Shown here: positions 42,694 through 54,075 of the stretch, in pieces
How positions within the stretch are numbered: position 1 is the first letter of the stretch
Layout: each line of letters begins with the position of its first letter
Assembly (NCBI RefSeq): GCF_030644205.1
Contig: NZ_CP128647.1
Coordinates: 1,178,001 to 1,242,000, forward strand
Source of the DNA: Mogibacterium neglectum
GTDB lineage: Bacteria > Bacillota > Clostridia > Peptostreptococcales > Anaerovoracaceae
DNA length: 64,000 bases
Reading direction: 5' to 3'
Made by a program: the position numbers and the translations under genes
Notes under the pieces: model-generated
The model's database searches: none
What the model was told of the DNA's origin: nothing
Seen by the model: the letters and a program-made list of their open reading frames with translations, nothing else

Positions 42694-43764
42694 TTGCTAC
42701 TTAATATATCTGGTTTGTTTATAGGATTGCTGTTCGGCTTTCTACTCAAGCGCGGACGTTTCTGTCCTACTGGAACGATACGAGATATCTATCTTGAGAA
42801 GAAATACTATAACGCAGTTCTCATCTTGACGATAATTGTTACCGAAGGACTGCTTTATCACATACTGGTCGGCAGCACTGTGATTCCTTCACCGTACTTT
42901 GGATGCTATTCGATGGTTGCCGTTCCTATAGGTGGATTCATCTTCGGAATCGGAGCAGTCCTCACCAACGGCTGTGTTACGAGCACTATCGTTAAAGTCG
43001 GAGATGGACGAATCATCGGAATACTATCGCTCATAGTTTTTGCAACGACTGAATACTTTACGAACAAATGGATTTTTAAGCCATTTACACAGAAGATTAT
43101 GGGGCTTCAGGAAGTATACGATATCGACTTGTTCGATATGCCCTTCTCCCCGCTGCTTATATTTGCACCAGCAGCCATATTGCTATATATCCTGATGTTT
43201 CGTCATTATAGAGCACACAAGCCAAAATACAAGTTGCCACAGACATATACCGGACTCCGACACATTTTCTGCGAGAAGATTTGGAGTCGTGAGATAACTG
43301 TAGTACTCATCGGGGTGCTCATGGCTGCTGCATTCTACTTCAGCAACCTCACTGGTAGAAATGGTGGAATCTCAATTTCCGACCCAGTATTATCTTGGTT
43401 CAACATGATAACAGGCACGCATTCCGAGCCCATCGGATGAGTTGTCTATAACAGAACCGACGGTGTCGGTTGGGATAATTTGGTGATTGTAGGAATAATC
43501 TTAGGTTCCTTCTTTACAACCTTTACGAGCAAAGAATTTTCGATAGTCAAAACAGATAAGAAAATTGTAATAAAAACCGTACTTGGAAGCATGCTCATGG
43601 GAATAGGTGCCGTGTGGGCGAAAGGCTGTCTTATTGGAAACGGCCTCGTTGCAACTTCTCAGCTCGCTACAAGAGCTTGGCTTGCACTGTTATTCATTGC
43701 ACTAGGAATCTGGTTTGGCGCATGGTTTATGTATGTCCGTGGCTTGAAAAGTGCAAGAGGGTAA
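42694..43764 (+). CDS. yedE: YeeE/YedE family (putative selenium/sulfur) transporter with in-frame TGA, candidate selenoprotein
   Basis: Translation starts at a TTG, 6 nt after AGGAGG. The frame runs 356 codons but codon 249 is TGA (43438-43440). Both parts are YedE-like: first half KRGRFCPTGTIRD and LTNGCVTSTIVKVG; second half, after the TGA in the same frame, GWDNLVIVGIILGSF and GAVWAKGCLIGNG. No ribosome binding site supports a separate start after the TGA. A hairpin of SECIS form follows it (separate entry). YedE with YedF is tied by comparative genomics to selenium metabolism. The best explanation is selenocysteine insertion (Sec249, context HSEPIG-U-VVYN); a simple nonsense mutation (for example TGG to TGA) remains possible. 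Confidence 0.75.
43455..43471 (+). promoter_or_regulatory. SECIS-like hairpin downstream of the yedE TGA
   Basis: AACCGAC-GGT-GTCGGTT: a perfect 7-bp stem with loop GGT. From the TGA to the apical loop is 21 nt, within the 16-37 nt window I recall for bacterial SECIS elements, and a G occupies the first loop positions as the model requires. It lies inside coding sequence, as bacterial SECIS elements do. Confidence 0.55.
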
Positions 43765-43860: not shown

Positions 43861-44085
43861 ATGGGAAATATAAAGCTTGACACCAAGGGCATGGACTGCC
43901 CGATACCACTTATAGAGCTTAAGAAGGCTTTGGGGGAAGCTGAAGAAGGTCAGATTATAGAGGTTGAATTCACTTGCCCTGACGCTGTAGTAAATCTGCC
44001 AGGTTACTGCGAAGAGCACAACCATGAAGTTCTGGACTTCGACAAGCAGGGTAACAAATCATGGAAGCTCACTGTCAAGAAGTGA
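43861..44085 (+). CDS. yedF: YedF-like sulfurtransferase (TusA/SirA family), selenium-linked
   Basis: A 74-residue TusA/SirA-fold protein, the N-terminal part only of the longer YedF. The signature DTKGMDCPIPLIELKKAL contains the conserved Cys-Pro-x-Pro active site. AGGAGG precedes the ATG. It lies about 100 bp downstream of yedE; YedE-YedF pairs are a recognised gene neighbourhood and are linked to selenium handling in genomes that use it. A persulfide or perselenide carrier role is likely. The C-terminal YedF domain is missing, which occurs in short versions. Confidence 0.88.
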   Translation: MGNIKLDTKGMDCPIPLIELKKALGEAEEGQIIEVEFTCPDAVVNLPGYCEEHNHEVLDFDKQGNKSWKLTVKK

Positions 44086-44142: not shown

Positions 44143-44595
44143 CTAGTTGCTCTCACCTTCTTGGAGATCTTTATACTCTTCCTCTACTATAACCTTGCCC
44201 TTCCACACCTTGAGTCCGTTAAACTCATATACGTTGGTATATCCTTGCTTTACAAGGCGCTTTGCAACTCTCTTACTCAGACCACCGTAATCGCAGTAAA
44301 GTAGAATTTTCTGATTTTTATCGGGGAGTGCCTTTACTTTTCCCTTATCGAAATCTTCGTACCATACAGGAATAGACTTCGGAATATGACCCATTCCCCA
44401 AGCAACCTTGCCTCTTACGTCGATAATCTTAGCATCATCCTTCTCTGCATTCTCAACAAATTTAGCGGCCTCTTTGCCGGAAATATGTGTATATCCGTCT
44501 TTATTCTTCTTGTCATCTGCGCTCTTTTTAGTACAGCCTGCAAGCAGTGCTATACTTATGAACAGAATAATAATTGGTAATATCTTTCTCTTCAT
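44143..44595 (-). CDS. rhodanese-like lipoprotein
   Basis: A 150-residue protein with a lipoprotein signal peptide (IIILFISIALLAGC, lipid-bearing Cys about residue 21) followed by a rhodanese domain: AKIIDVRGKVAWGMGHIPKSIPV and the active-site loop LLYCDYGGLSKRVA with the catalytic Cys. Exported rhodaneses carry sulfane sulfur outside the membrane or help repair. It converges with yedF. Relation to the selenium/sulfur genes is by position only. Confidence 0.9.
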   Translation of the reverse strand: MKRKILPIIILFISIALLAGCTKKSADDKKNKDGYTHISGKEAAKFVENAEKDDAKIIDVRGKVAWGMGHIPKSIPVWYEDFDKGKVKALPDKNQKILLYCDYGGLSKRVAKRLVKQGYTNVYEFNGLKVWKGKVIVEEEYKDLQEGESN

Positions 44596-45289: not shown

Positions 45290-45507
45290 ATCCTTTTTCT
45301 CCTTTTTCATATCGTAATATTTTAGTATCATTGCTACAAATGGTCAATGATTTGTTATCATCAATATTTTTGATAGTGCACAATTTAAATTAAGATTTTT
45401 ATAATGATTAATTACTTCACTTAGATGTTATACTAAACCCATATCGTAAGATTATAATATATTATGTTGCGTTTACTCGCGATAAATAAGGAATATTGGG
45501 GAATATT

Positions 45508-46086
45508 ATGAAGAGAAAACTACACATTAAGAGATTTACGTTACTTGCGGCAGTCGTGCTTGTGCTCGCAATATCATTCACCGGTTGCGGCAAGGATGGT
45601 TCAAATTCAGATTCAAAAGGCAGCAACAGCACAAAGGCTAGCCTTAAGAACTTCGAAACCACTACGCTAGACGGCGAAAAATTTACACAGGATAACTTGA
45701 AGGATTACGACCTCACCGTGGTTAACGTATGGTCGACAACTTGTGGATACTGCATCGATGAGATGCCTGCTCTTGAGAAGCTCAGGAACCAGCTACCTTC
45801 CAACGTGCAGTTTGTATCAATTTGTCTCGATGGAGACTCCTCACCAGACACTGCAAAGGAGATTCTCTCCAAGCAGGGATTAACGGCAAAGACGCTCGTT
45901 CCAAGCGACTCTTTGAACGAAGGATTTCTTCAGTACGTAAGCGGTACTCCTACCACCGTGTTCTTTGATAAGAATGGAAAGCAAATCGGCGATCCAAAGG
46001 TCGGAGCTTTCTCAACACATGATACTGATGCAATTACTGAACTCTACATGAAGGAAGTAAATTCGCGTCTTAAGAAATTGTCATAG
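45508..46086 (+). CDS. TlpA-like thiol-disulfide lipoprotein
   Basis: A 192-residue secreted thioredoxin-fold protein: signal peptide with lipobox ISFTGC (Cys27), then a TlpA/redoxin domain with active site VWSTTCGYCIDEMP (Cys79-x2-Cys82) and the cis-Pro region GTPTTVFFD. It is anchored outside the membrane and would reduce disulfides of exported proteins. The start is the ATG at 45508, after GGGGA. It is followed by the CXXC peptide gene and the membrane ferredoxin, likely one operon. Confidence 0.92.
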   Translation: MKRKLHIKRFTLLAAVVLVLAISFTGCGKDGSNSDSKGSNSTKASLKNFETTTLDGEKFTQDNLKDYDLTVVNVWSTTCGYCIDEMPALEKLRNQLPSNVQFVSICLDGDSSPDTAKEILSKQGLTAKTLVPSDSLNEGFLQYVSGTPTTVFFDKNGKQIGDPKVGAFSTHDTDAITELYMKEVNSRLKKLS

Positions 46087-49870: not shown

Positions 49871-50563
49871 TTAAGCAGTAGCAACCTTGAGCTTTCTGCT
49901 CTTTAGAACTGCCTTTCTAAGTCTCAAAACGACATAGCTTATGTATACAACGGAGTATACGATTATACCTGTTATGTGAGACTTTACATCTGCCGAATAC
50001 AGCACCATTATATGCACATAGATTCCGATAAAGAACGGATAAGCCATGCGTTGAATCTTTTTCCAAGTCTTACCACTCATCTTGCGGCGAACCAACTTAA
50101 ACGAGGTGATAAAGAGAGGAATAAGCATAGCTAGTAGGCACAGAGTGATTGTCGATGCGATTAGCTCTCTCGTAGGCATAGCCTTTGGATTTGTAAATAA
50201 CATCGGGAAGTACTTAACTCCGAACACCACGTTGTGGCTGAGAGTCAGCAAGCTTCCTATGATAGATATCTCTCCGCGCACGCTCATCAGCTTACGAGAC
50301 AGTTTGTTGTGCTTAGTGATGACACCAAGATACATTACCACCATAAAGGTAGCTGTTGTAAAGATGCCTCTACTGAACATGTTCATAAAGTATATGTTGA
50401 ACCATTCTGGGAATTTCTGGTCATATCCGAGGTTGAAGTACATAACAACTGCTCCACACCATACGTATATACCCAGATAAAAAGCCCCTGGGTGCTTCTT
50501 AATTGCATCTGCTGTCAGAATATAGAATATGACAGTCACTGCGATTCCAAATATTGTGTTCAC
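49871..50563 (-). CDS. ferric-reductase-like transmembrane protein (MsrQ/YedZ-type haem protein)
   Basis: A 230-residue membrane protein with about six helices. The segment RKMSGKTWKKIQRMAYPFFIGIYVHIMVLY resembles the R-x-W-x2-L(Q)R-x-YPF-H haem-binding helix of ferric reductase-like domains; other histidines lie in LTLSHNVVFG (helix 3) and near the C-terminus. Its ATG overlaps the stop of the giant FMN protein (4 bp), so the two are translationally coupled. The pair FMN-binding protein plus ferric-reductase-like membrane protein is known from extracytosolic flavin electron-transfer systems. Confidence 0.82.
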   Translation of the reverse strand: MNTIFGIAVTVIFYILTADAIKKHPGAFYLGIYVWCGAVVMYFNLGYDQKFPEWFNIYFMNMFSRGIFTTATFMVVMYLGVITKHNKLSRKLMSVRGEISIIGSLLTLSHNVVFGVKYFPMLFTNPKAMPTRELIASTITLCLLAMLIPLFITSFKLVRRKMSGKTWKKIQRMAYPFFIGIYVHIMVLYSADVKSHITGIIVYSVVYISYVVLRLRKAVLKSRKLKVATA

Positions 50564-53500
50564 GATACCGTCCTTTCCGTCTCAGCTACAGCAGAATTTT
50601 CTGCAGTTTTCCTGCTCTCTGCTGGCTTCTGTAAATCTTCTCTCTTGTTAGCTTTTCCGCTATCTCTGCTCTCGACACTTGAATTTCCTGAGATTTCGGC
50701 GGTTACTGCACTTCTTGTGCTTACTGTTCCGCTTGTAACGGCGGATGTTGTCGCACTAGCAACTGGAGTTTTGACATTCACCATAACTAGAGTCTTAGTC
50801 TTTTTATCGATTCCGTCGACTGAGAACTCGAGCACTGCCTTGGTCATCCCCTTCTTTGAGAGGTCAGGCTTCTGCACTAGCTTAACCTTTACAGAACCAT
50901 CCATAGGGATGTTGCTGAACTTAGCCTTATAGTCTTCAAGCGTCGGTTCAGTTCCGTTTACCTCGATTGGCTGAGAGTTTACCCTCTGTGGTGTAAATGC
51001 TGTTCCACCGTCCTCGTCATCATCCGCGATTCCATCGTGGTCTTTGTCTCTGTAAATCCAGTACTTATATTCTCTAACCAGAAGCTTGCCGTTCTTCTTA
51101 GCCTTGAACTTCATGGTTACTGTCCTAAACATCCCATCGTCACCGTCCCATTTATCATCATCTACCACTGGTGTGCCGGTGATTGTCGTTCCGTCAAATG
51201 ACAAGCCTTTAGGTAGTCCTTCGATTGAAGTGGCCATCTCTGCATCCTTATCGAGGCTTTTAACTGTAGCTGGCTTAATAGGAACACCCTGTGTCCACTT
51301 TGGTCTACCTGGCTCATCGAGTGCAGTCTCGATTACCTTGCTATCCACTTTAACCTCTGGAAGCGCCTCCTCTGCATCTGCTGCTGGAGTCTTCACATTG
51401 ACCATCACGATTGCCTTGCTCTTCTTGTCGATTCCGTCGACTGAGAACTCGAGCACTGCTTTGGTCATTCCCTTCTTTGAGAGGTCAGGCTTCTGCACTA
51501 GCTTAACCTTTACAGAACCATCTGTAGGGATGTTGCTGAACTTAGCCTTGTAGTCCTCTAGAGTTGGTGCTTTGCCATCTACTTCAATTGGCTTTGTGTT
51601 AACTCTCTGTGGTGTAAATGCTACTCCGCCGTCTTCATCGTCATCTGCTATTCCATCGTGGTCTTTGTCTCTATAAACCCAGTATTTGTACTTTCTAACT
51701 AGTAGCTTACCATTCTTCTTGGCCTTGAACTTCAAAGTTACTGTCTTGAACATTCCACCGTCACCATCCCACTTGTCGTCATCAACGACCGGTGTTCCTG
51801 TGATATTTGTGCCATCAAAGCTTAGTCCCTTAGGCAGTCCCTCGATGGTTGTCTGCATCTCTGCGTCCTTGTCTAAACTCTTAACCGTCGCAGGCTTAAT
51901 AGGCATACGCTCAGTCCACTTTGGTCTACCTGGCTCATCAAGTGATGTCTCGATTACCTTGCTGTCAACCTCTACCTCTGGAAGTGCTGGTTCTTCACCG
52001 CCACCTCCGCCACTACCATTATCATCAACAATCTCTTTATCCGCTTCTGTACCTGACAACTGAAATTCTACATGGATTATCTTAGGTGTATTAGGGTTCT
52101 CATCTTTATTAAGGGTATATTTTACCTTTTTATTTACAGGTTTTTTATCAGGTGTATACTCATAGCGATTTCCGCTCTTTGAAACAAGGCGAACCTTAAC
52201 TGTTTCGAACTCGAACGATAAAGGCGCATCAACAACCTGTTGATTGTCGATTTTACGGTCATCAGTAGGATCCTTTTTAATATTCTTCACCTTGTACCAC
52301 TTCGAACCATCCTTGCTGTATTCAAGTCCAACGATGTAATCCTTGCTGTAACGTCCAACGAGGATTCTAAATTTGTCGTACGAGAGCGACTGCTTGTGAA
52401 TAACCTTTGCCTTTATTATTTTCTTATCACCATATGATTTTAGATCGCTTCCATTTTCAATAGCTTTGCCATCCTCATCTGTGATGCTGAGTCCATTGGC
52501 TGCAAAATCTTTCCACTCTGCTTCCCTAACAGAGCCATCTTTCTTAACAATCTTAACCTTAAGTTCTGAGAAGTCAACGGAATCACCCTTATTAACTTCT
52601 ACTGTCTTAGTCTTTGGCTCAATAATTGAAATATCCTTTACATCAGAGTTAGTTTTATAATCGCTAGCCGACTTATGCGTAGCTTCCTTTGTCGCAGCCG
52701 AAATTCCACTTGCACTTATCGTAGCTCCGCTCACGCTATCGAACATCTTCTTGCCCTCATAGCGGTCGTTCATATACGCCTTTACAGTACGTGACATGAG
52801 AGCTATATCAGATACAGTGTTATTTCCTGATAGACCGCTCAGCATATCGACATACTTATCGCCAAGGAGCTCCTTGACCTTAGCCTTAGGATTACTGCTT
52901 TTCCTTATCGCTTCGAAATACTCACGATATAATCCCATCTTAGCGATGTTCCAGCGACCTTCCTTGCCCTGCAGGAACGGTATCACGTTCTCTGCCTGGC
53001 TTCTAAATGGTCCCATGTCATCGCGATAATCGTCACCTACGCCGACCCTTAGATTCGATATCTCGCCATCCTTTACCGTAATATAAGTCTTAATTCCACC
53101 TGGATTAAGGTATCCGATACCAATTCCAGTGTATTCGCCATCCTTGAGTTTATCTCCCGGGTAATGTTTACGAAGAGCTGCATCTACATATGATGGCTCC
53201 CCTGTCTCAGGGTTAACCGATGGATTTGTATCATCTGTGCTTGGCTTTTTGTCACCTGTGCTAGGCTTGCTAGTATTGGTGATGTTAGTCTTGCCAGCAC
53301 CTGCAAGTGCATTTCTCACCGCATCGATGATTCCACGGCTGGAATATGTAGCTCCAGAGACTGTGTCTACACTCTTGCCTGGACGTCCTAGCAGTCTACC
53401 GATAACAGCCTTTGCACGATTAAAGAATGGTGCATCGTCACTGTGTGAAATTATCTCGACATTGGTAATATTACCACCAGAAACAGTTACACGGACTCTA

Positions 53501-54075
53501 ATTGGTCCATTGAAGCCCTGACCTGTTCCAATATATACACCATCTTTTAGGTTAGCACTTCCGATTGAAAAAGATCCTGCTACATTACCTTTTCTTCCCT
53601 TAGCAGATCTAGCGTCTTTCTTGACTGGCGTTACCTTAGCCTGCTGCTTCGATCCAGCCTTGCGCAGAGCATCAGCAACCGCCTTCTTGATTGCATTTGA
53701 AGAAATAGTCGCTCCTGAAACAGAGTCAACGTTCACATTACCACTGCTCAGAATCTTGCCTATTACAGCTTTCGCCCTATTAAAATACTCTGGTGTTTCT
53801 GTCTGAGATATAACCTTGATATCTGTCAGCTTTCCACCCTTGACAGTGATGCGAACAGTAAGGGGACCACCGTAACCGGTTGCAGTACCTTCGTATTCTC
53901 CATCCTTAAGACCTTCTGTGGAAACCTCTGAACCAATTGCCTGAGCTTCCTTGGCAGCCTTTTCTTTAGCAGCGTTGTTCTTCTCGACGACCGTAACAGC
54001 CGAATAAGCCATAGCGGCGGTAACAGCCACGGCTACGACAAAGGACAGCACTCCCTTGAAACCAGTTGTCTTCAT
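50560..54075 (-). CDS. giant extracytosolic FMN-binding protein with three FMN domains and tandem repeats
   Basis: A 1171-residue surface protein: N-terminal anchor (residues 8-32), then three FMN-binding domains, at about 56-138, 175-257 and 309-465, each ending in the flavinylation-type motif S-G-A-T (Thr123, Thr243, Thr452) that ApbE-like transferases modify. An intermediate beta region (about 480-690) follows, then two nearly identical 207-residue units (697-903 and 904-1110), each with an Ig-like part (EGLPKGLSFDGT-x-ITGTPVVDD) and a calcium-binding DKDHDGIADDDEDGG loop. The C-terminal ~60 residues are Ser/Lys/Glu-rich without an LPxTG motif. Expected role: carries covalent FMN outside the membrane and takes electrons from the coupled haem protein. 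ApbE is not in the window. Confidence 0.88.
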   Translation of the reverse strand: MKTTGFKGVLSFVVAVAVTAAMAYSAVTVVEKNNAAKEKAAKEAQAIGSEVSTEGLKDGEYEGTATGYGGPLTVRITVKGGKLTDIKVISQTETPEYFNRAKAVIGKILSSGNVNVDSVSGATISSNAIKKAVADALRKAGSKQQAKVTPVKKDARSAKGRKGNVAGSFSIGSANLKDGVYIGTGQGFNGPIRVRVTVSGGNITNVEIISHSDDAPFFNRAKAVIGRLLGRPGKSVDTVSGATYSSRGIIDAVRNALAGAGKTNITNTSKPSTGDKKPSTDDTNPSVNPETGEPSYVDAALRKHYPGDKLKDGEYTGIGIGYLNPGGIKTYITVKDGEISNLRVGVGDDYRDDMGPFRSQAENVIPFLQGKEGRWNIAKMGLYREYFEAIRKSSNPKAKVKELLGDKYVDMLSGLSGNNTVSDIALMSRTVKAYMNDRYEGKKMFDSVSGATISASGISAATKEATHKSASDYKTNSDVKDISIIEPKTKTVEVNKGDSVDFSELKVKIVKKDGSVREAEWKDFAANGLSITDEDGKAIENGSDLKSYGDKKIIKAKVIHKQSLSYDKFRILVGRYSKDYIVGLEYSKDGSKWYKVKNIKKDPTDDRKIDNQQVVDAPLSFEFETVKVRLVSKSGNRYEYTPDKKPVNKKVKYTLNKDENPNTPKIIHVEFQLSGTEADKEIVDDNGSGGGGGEEPALPEVEVDSKVIETSLDEPGRPKWTERMPIKPATVKSLDKDAEMQTTIEGLPKGLSFDGTNITGTPVVDDDKWDGDGGMFKTVTLKFKAKKNGKLLVRKYKYWVYRDKDHDGIADDDEDGGVAFTPQRVNTKPIEVDGKAPTLEDYKAKFSNIPTDGSVKVKLVQKPDLSKKGMTKAVLEFSVDGIDKKSKAIVMVNVKTPAADAEEALPEVKVDSKVIETALDEPGRPKWTQGVPIKPATVKSLDKDAEMATSIEGLPKGLSFDGTTITGTPVVDDDKWDGDDGMFRTVTMKFKAKKNGKLLVREYKYWIYRDKDHDGIADDDEDGGTAFTPQRVNSQPIEVNGTEPTLEDYKAKFSNIPMDGSVKVKLVQKPDLSKKGMTKAVLEFSVDGIDKKTKTLVMVNVKTPVASATTSAVTSGTVSTRSAVTAEISGNSSVESRDSGKANKREDLQKPAESRKTAENSAVAETERTVS
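50746..51366 (-). repeat. second unit of the 621-bp tandem repeat
   Basis: Encodes residues 904-1110 of the FMN protein, beginning ALPEVKVDSKVIET. It is nearly the same as the unit at 51367-51987 at protein level, with scattered synonymous changes, so the duplication is old enough to have diverged at DNA level. Confidence 0.85.
51367..51987 (-). repeat. first unit of the 621-bp tandem repeat
   Basis: Encodes residues 697-903, beginning ALPEVEVDSKVIET. Contains the DKDHDGIADDDEDGG calcium-loop and the Ig-like part; the two units abut in frame. Confidence 0.85.

Follow-up and report, generated by a model that had tools for sequence, protein, structure and literature searches.

A probable selenocysteine codon within an insert of a TsuA-like transporter gene of Mogibacterium neglectum

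Does the TGA codon that interrupts the frame of a transporter gene in Mogibacterium neglectum end the protein, or is it read as selenocysteine (Sec), and what might Sec contribute to a transporter of this kind? The gene lies in a window of 64,000 nucleotides, by which we mean the whole stretch of DNA analysed, and the following features frame the question:

42694..43764, plus strand: tsuA-like gene (PF04143) with a putative in-frame Sec codon, from profile matches and reading of the open reading frame
43438..43440, plus strand: UGA, putative Sec codon 249, within the insert HSEPIG-U-VVYNRTDG; TGA in 9/11 and TGC (Cys) in 2/11 insert-bearing genes
43861..44085, plus strand: tsuB/yeeD-like gene of the TusA family with Cys13 in a CPxP motif and TGA as its own stop, from profile scores
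41806..42354, minus strand: divergent MarR-type regulator, with a look-alike beside tsuA of M. timidum (L011 2806-3351)
44143..44595, minus strand: rhodanese (PF00581), lipoprotein-like by eye and convergent with tsuB, with a look-alike in M. timidum (L011 719-1174)

The tsuA-like gene starts with TTG, preceded by AGGAGG, and the sole internal stop of its frame is the TGA at codon 249, which is followed by 107 sense codons and a TAA, giving a product of 356 residues if TGA is Sec. As the first-pass annotation of this DNA had described, there is a single in-frame TGA, after which the same frame continues. The upstream part scores 138.8 bits against PF04143, the downstream part 86.5 bits and the read-through protein 224.5 bits (gathering score 27); the parts before and after the TGA each match the family alone, and the frame reads as a single family protein that is interrupted. 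In a read-through scan of the 64-kb window for frames of at least 150 codons that contain one internal TGA and no more, at least 40 codons on either side of it and no predominant overlap with another open reading frame of at least 150 codons, this frame was the only one passing. Comparison with the M. pumilum gene reveals 88 synonymous and 23 nonsynonymous differences in the 248 codons before the TGA, and 46 and 7 in the 107 codons after it; with M. timidum the numbers are 99 and 47 in 248 codons before the TGA, and 48 and 16 in 106 codons after it. The codons 3' of the TGA are thus under a constraint at least equal to that of the 5' part, which favours translation of the downstream part.

Relatives bearing the same insert are informative on the codon itself. 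Across 11 insert-bearing genes the site of codon 249 holds no codon other than TGA and, in two loci (L036 and L071), TGC. The nine TGA genes come from eight genomes of Mogibacterium, the Parvimonas family, a Johnsonella MAG and an Eubacteriales MAG, and identity to the window protein falls from 92% in M. pumilum (L010/L051) and 83% in M. timidum (L011/L052) through 52% in Parvimonas sp. oral taxon 393 (L053), 50% in the Johnsonella MAG (L056) and 48% in the Eubacteriales MAG (L055) to 38% in a paralogue of M. timidum (L035/L054); L062 and L063, from the same family as Parvimonas sp. oral taxon 393 and near L053, have TGA as well. Cys is found in L071, from one genome of the family of L055, and in the paralogue L036 of the window genome (G000:C1:23894-24880; L036 1489-2505), which lies outside the window, is 39% identical to the window protein and forms a second tsuA-tsuB pair. 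The window genome itself holds, on this reading, a natural pair of predicted Sec and Cys isoforms. L036 (GG-C-NIYDQ) and the Sec-type L054 of M. timidum (GG-U-NIYDQ) are sister rows with 100/100 support, and downstream of each come tsuB and next to it a gene of similar sequence (YTEKDxDLLYSTEKVVxKGMPV, read by eye). In a tree of 14 rows, drawn without L053, the insert-bearing clade is supported by 100/100 and the Sec label requires at least two changes; the inner branching of the clade is open and L071 is a long branch of unsure placement. The first-pass annotation had suggested inspecting homologues at the TGA for Cys or Sec as against Trp or Arg, and the insert-bearing relatives show TGA or Cys and none of them Trp or Arg. 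We consider this conservation of TGA in distant relatives the decisive evidence for the predicted Sec.

The subfamily is rare and patchy among the genomes sampled: insert-bearing genes were found in 3/61, 1/391 (the own genome), 3/130, 1/397 and 4/295 genomes in successive searches, between which genomes partly recur, and a further search of 398 genomes returned the own genome alone among the rows examined. Scanning the collection with two peptide patterns in 72 stretches confirmed six loci. The site alignment of the 398-genome search covered nine non-own loci (L074-L082), among which the four Bacillota TsuA rows aligning cleanly (L074-L077) are all without the insert, and L078-L082 have a different loop that aligns poorly, with D, L, N or a gap and no Cys at the column. 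The site counts were made with weaker matches (L012-L034, L037 and L038, mostly part-length) and rows without a locus set aside, and L058-L060 and L067 were translated and kept outside the alignment. The tsuA frame of L053 breaks about 120 nt after the TGA (about 3810), near a run of A, and L053 was cut there for protein alignments; L062 and L063 are open.

The genome holds the machinery that Sec would need. A search for tRNA-Sec (selC) gave one match above the cut-off (69.9 bits, anticodon tca) and 14 weaker ones below it, and profile searches gave 586 bits for SelA, 355 bits for SelB and 366 bits for SelD, so that all four genes which the first-pass annotation had named for a check are present. 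selC is directly followed by selA and then selB, and selD is encoded on the opposite strand some 1.5 kb ahead of selC. The selD gene (G000:C1:419632-420552, L048) carries an in-frame TGA of its own (GG-U-GAKVGPG), at what we take to be the usual Sec place of SelD. SelB scores above the cut-off in 5/5 genomes of relatives, a set that lies apart from the genomes of L062, L063 and L071. TGA serves as normal stop in 2/11 genes of the window neighbourhood (tsuB and an ABC gene); since it terminates ordinary genes, TGA is not simply a sense codon here. Taken together, UGA 249 is almost certainly a Sec codon whose Sec is incorporated into the product.

Three other readings of the codon have to be weighed against this. 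Translation might stop at the TGA and restart, for example at TTG 43480, to yield two subunits in the manner of PmpA/PmpB or archaeal YedE, and split YeeE/YedE proteins do exist, according to the parts of PMC11582611 and PMC5322559 available; we regard this as very improbable, as the cut does not fall between the halves (248 and 107 residues), the residues from the TGA to the restart resemble each other across the Mogibacterium genes and in part across the others, two relatives have Cys in place of the stop, and the stop is always TGA. Still less credit can be given to a nonsense mutation with a decaying downstream part, for which the use of TGA as a plain stop in the two neighbouring genes and the additional frame break of L053 could be cited: TGA recurs at the same codon in nine genes with identity down to 38%, neither TAA, TAG nor a non-Cys sense codon occupies the site in any of the 11 insert-bearing genes, and constraint persists after the TGA. 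Reading of TGA as Trp or by near-cognate read-through without Sec machinery is negligible, no supporting point having been found for it and the presence of tRNA-Sec and SelA/B/D, the genes that end in TGA and the Cys, not Trp, of the relatives all speaking against it. We therefore reject pseudogene, split gene and Trp recoding on the conservation of the TGA, its exchange for Cys, the constraint and the Sec machinery.

For Sec at UGA 249, a bacterial SECIS element would be expected directly downstream, where we find:

43455..43471, plus strand: putative bacterial SECIS upper stem-loop AACCGAC / GGT / GTCGGTT (AACCGAC 43455-43461, loop GGT 43462-43464, GTCGGTT 43465-43471), with a stem of 7 bp and the loop 21 nt after the UGA
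43441..43485, plus strand: the 45 nt after the UGA, with a possible lower stem GUUGUC/GAUAAU; MFE -10.1 kcal/mol

The 7-bp stem 14 nt after the TGA and its GGT loop at 21 nt are present in the sequence as first described. The bSECIS rules given in the part of PMC13188914 available (stem of 4-16 bp, loop of 3-9 nt that carries G within its first two positions, spacing of 16-37 nt, MFE <= -7.5) accommodate the window hairpin with its 7 bp, GGT, 21 nt and -10.1 kcal/mol; the 45 nt starting with the UGA itself fold at an MFE of -12.7 (z -1.98). The three type-1 genes of Mogibacterium share the spacing of 21 nt, whereas in L053-L056, L062 and L063 (6/9) the loop follows at 15 nt, one short of the published 16-37. 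The hairpin reads ACCGAC-GGU-GUCGGU in the window and M. timidum, differs in M. pumilum by a GGC loop and a single G-U pair, and takes the form GACCAA-AGUU-UUGGUC in the M. timidum paralogue and GCCAA-GGUC-UUGGC in the other five TGA genes. Folded from the codon after the site, the nine TGA genes reach -7.8 to -17.0 kcal/mol with an apical-G hairpin, and the two Cys genes -5.1 and -7.0 kcal/mol without one.

According to our scoring script, a stem of at least 6 bp whose loop carries G within its first two positions occurs in 9/9 TGA genes and 0/2 Cys genes, and at 183/2765 other codon positions in a set of nine genes. The nine hairpins are far above this background in our comparison, although not independent of each other (three Mogibacterium and three Parvimonas-family genes are close kin); given the same background, absence of the hairpin from the two Cys genes is expected and proves little. 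Synonymous shuffles gave an equal hairpin in 46/2000 cases for the window, 96/2000 for M. pumilum, 18/2000 for M. timidum, 161/2000 for L054, 330/2000 for L062, 168/2000 for L055 and 555/2000 for L056; by this measure the hairpin is rare in the Mogibacterium type-1 genes and less exceptional in some of the other relatives. Other codon positions reached the score of the site in 0/316 cases for the window (0/316, 0/316 and 9/315 for the three Mogibacterium genes), 37/299 for L054, 34/309 for L062, 26/309 for L055 and 9/312 for L056. Of seven sequences folded, three had z-scores in the range from -0.9 to +0.5. The covariation signal is weak, with 1/6 pairs changing on both sides in five rows (96/500 shuffles equally high) and 0/7 pairs in three rows, the hairpin groups being counted apart as the Mogibacterium type-1 genes have two extra codons and automatic alignment put gaps into the hairpin. 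The hairpin would not convince alone; it is the conservation of the TGA and the exchange for Cys that carry the case for the predicted Sec.

Which transporter carries the insert? The first-pass annotation had called the gene a YedE-type transporter next to YedF, drawing on the link of YedE-YedF to selenium known from comparative genomics. NCBIfam scores give a different filing: the TsuA/YeeE model ranks first with 175 (175.4) bits, followed by a second TsuA model with 133 (132.9) bits, YedE/FdhT with 64 bits and seleno_YedE with 38 (38.1) bits, and the ranking is unchanged with E up to 10. The YedE/seleno_YedE models (TIGR04112, NF033796; putative selenium transporter) belong to a superfamily homologous to the window protein, which stays far under the cut-offs of 200 bits for seleno_YedE and 350 bits for YedE/FdhT; its identity with YedE (TIGR04112) was rejected on the former (38.1 vs 200 bits). 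Since the TsuA models are the top scorers and themselves remain below their curated cut-offs (175.4 vs 645 and 132.9 vs 400 bits), we file the protein as TsuA-like and not as TsuA proper. For the neighbour at 43861-44085 the scores are 53.6 bits for TsuB/YeeD, 39.9 for YedF and 34.5 for TusA, all below the cut-offs. The YedE/YedF filing is thus replaced in favour of TsuA and TsuB, and with this assignment the YedE-YedF selenium link does not transfer directly. The TsoY selenoprotein model (NF047643) gave no match at E <= 10 in three proteins of the subfamily. Judged from its sequence, the window gene very probably encodes a Sec-containing TsuA-like transporter with the Sec in this insert.

The nearest solved structures by both sequence and fold are StTsuA of Spirochaeta thermophila (PDB 6leo, 8k1r), which like E. 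coli YeeE shares family and fold with the window protein, and the StTsuA-TsuB fusion. The cysteines of the StTsuA relay have counterparts in the alignment:

42763..42765, plus strand: Cys24, corresponding to StTsuA C22, the third, cytosolic relay cysteine
42973..42975, plus strand: Cys94, corresponding to StTsuA C91, the second relay cysteine; going by the motif, this is where the published GUxSG type has its Sec
43627..43629, plus strand: Cys312, corresponding to StTsuA C293, the first, outer relay cysteine

According to the part of PMC11073785 available, sulfur in StTsuA passes C293 first, C91 second and C22 third, with relay steps reported at 8.6 and 6.7 A; a thiosulfate ion was placed next to a conserved cysteine of the outer surface, and the cytosolic TsuB-binding surface contains R28, R98, E101 and E261. 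These contact residues correspond to R30, K101, D104 and E281 in the window protein, next to whose gene tsuB lies. StTsuA lacks the insert bearing Sec/Cys 249, and the alignments place Sec249 in or beside an insertion relative to StTsuA. The helix that starts just after the insert has E281, equated with StTsuA E261 by counting on the alignment, at its other end; with E281 being cytosolic, the insert comes to lie on the outer side. By homology, Sec249 is therefore probably exposed on the outer face, close to where the cysteine relay begins. An AlphaFold model built with 7 sequences (mean pLDDT 69.5, pTM 0.73) has 6leo as best solved fold (E 1.8e-12, TM 0.72) and has residues 249-256 at pLDDT < 50; the model supports the family fold, not the geometry of the Sec loop.

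These positions suggest a model according to which SelA, SelB, SelC and SelD together with the hairpin directly downstream would insert Sec at UGA 249, and an outer-face selenolate would serve as an extra first station ahead of C312, either capturing the sulfane sulfur of thiosulfate or keeping the entry thiol reduced. From there sulfur would pass via C312, C94 and C24 to Cys13 of TsuB as cytosolic acceptor, and with Sec in place of Cys the entry site might be faster and more readily reduced. For the path from C312 to TsuB we rely on StTsuA, and the Sec step is our own proposal; we hold the relay role of Sec249 to be possible, at a little under an even chance. Thiosulfate would be the substrate by homology only. 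The first-pass annotation had imagined a selenium sensor or carrier, for which we find no specific support, and the handling of thiosulfate or sulfane sulfur would be the more conservative reading. Its main proposal, a selenoprotein gene whose Sec codon is followed by a SECIS-like hairpin, has strong support, and its gene names need correcting.

Alternatively, Sec may be real and act as a redox gate or sensor, with U249 forming a selenenylsulfide with a cysteine or thiol that opens or closes the transporter, possibly being reduced by a thioredoxin-like (Redoxin) protein encoded nearby (45496-46086, lipoprotein-like by eye) or served by the rhodanese at 44143-44595. The outer loop position of U249 in the alignments and the neighbouring Redoxin/thioredoxin-like and rhodanese genes, the latter present in M. 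timidum too, fit such a gate; the insert, however, has no other conserved Cys in the alignment, and no such neighbours are seen by eye within about 3 kb on each side in Parvimonas and Johnsonella, which renders the gate unlikely in our estimation.

For the preferred relay, the partner protein is of further interest. TsuB/YeeD and TusA are CPxP sulfurtransferases, and in 10/11 insert-bearing genes a tsuB-like gene lies downstream, starting 8-97 nt beyond the tsuA match, the exception being the Cys-type L071 with no tsuB within 700 nt. In the window neighbour, as in the Mogibacterium rows generally and in the Eubacteriales MAG, the CPxP motif holds Cys; overall its Cys codon is TGC/TGT in six and TGA (UPxP) in 4/10 genes, located as follows:

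L056 4070-4294: TsuB with TGA at the CPxP Cys
L053 4006-4230: TsuB with TGA at the CPxP Cys
L062 and L063 1269-1493, minus strand: TsuB with TGA at the CPxP Cys

In L053 and L056, the sequence behind this TGA has a folding energy of about -11 kcal/mol. The TsuB of the Parvimonas family and Johnsonella is likely to be a second selenoprotein in the same path. An apparently Sec-containing TsuB at several of these loci points to selenium having been recruited at more than one station. One can also conceive of a dedicated chalcogen importer that performs group translocation of sulfane sulfur or selenium species by a selenium-cysteine relay, its entry residue U249 of TsuA containing selenium and, for the Parvimonas family and Johnsonella, its exit residue U13 of TsuB (UPxP) doing so as well; we consider it rather improbable. 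If the cargo were selenium, the protein would be a candidate for the missing high-affinity selenium transporter, one that itself needs selenium to be made; this transporter is called unidentified in the accessible parts of a 2022 review (PMC9312934) and a 2024 study (PMC11097638). Methanococcus maripaludis deprived of a YedE-like gene had no clear selenium-uptake defect beyond a mild selenocystine effect, as far as described in the available part of PMC11097638, a result that neither supports nor excludes selenium as cargo of the window protein.

The first-pass annotation knew of no described case of a transporter of this type containing Sec. Part of this is overtaken: a selenoprotein of the YeeE/YedE thiosulfate transporter family with the motif GUxSG (WP_012471001.1) appears in Table 1 of PMC13188914, and the same accession, without the motif, in PMC9312934, in the portions of both articles available. 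Like the window protein, the published one combines PF04143 with one Sec; going by the motif, not by the record itself, its Sec would fall on the second relay cysteine (StTsuA G-C91-A-S-G). The window protein reads GCVTS (Cys94) there and has its Sec elsewhere, in IG-U-VVY, so that it is not of the GUxSG type and the published site differs. In PMC13188914, proteins that share a domain and differ in where their Sec lies are placed in subfamilies of their own, by which rule an insert-Sec TsuA-like protein would be one more. Table 1 of that inventory of 119 families lists no TusA-type family, and TusA, SirA and YedF are absent from the text available; the main texts of PMC5029168 and PMC12013277 gave no match to the terms YeeE or YedE. 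An insert-Sec TsuA was not found in the literature searched, and Haft and Tolstoy 2025 may describe it.

The locus would give a transporter of known structure and mapped cysteines one more Sec position, and would bring selenium chemistry to the entrance of a sulfur transporter. Nature's own exchange of Cys and Sec between two Mogibacterium species, together with the insert-free form, makes the benefit of selenium to a sulfur transporter directly testable. Elsewhere in the window, an open reading frame of 1171 aa (50560-54075, minus strand) seems by eye to hold repeated FMN-binding-type domains and two long near-identical repeats, and adjoins a membrane-protein open reading frame at 49871-50563.
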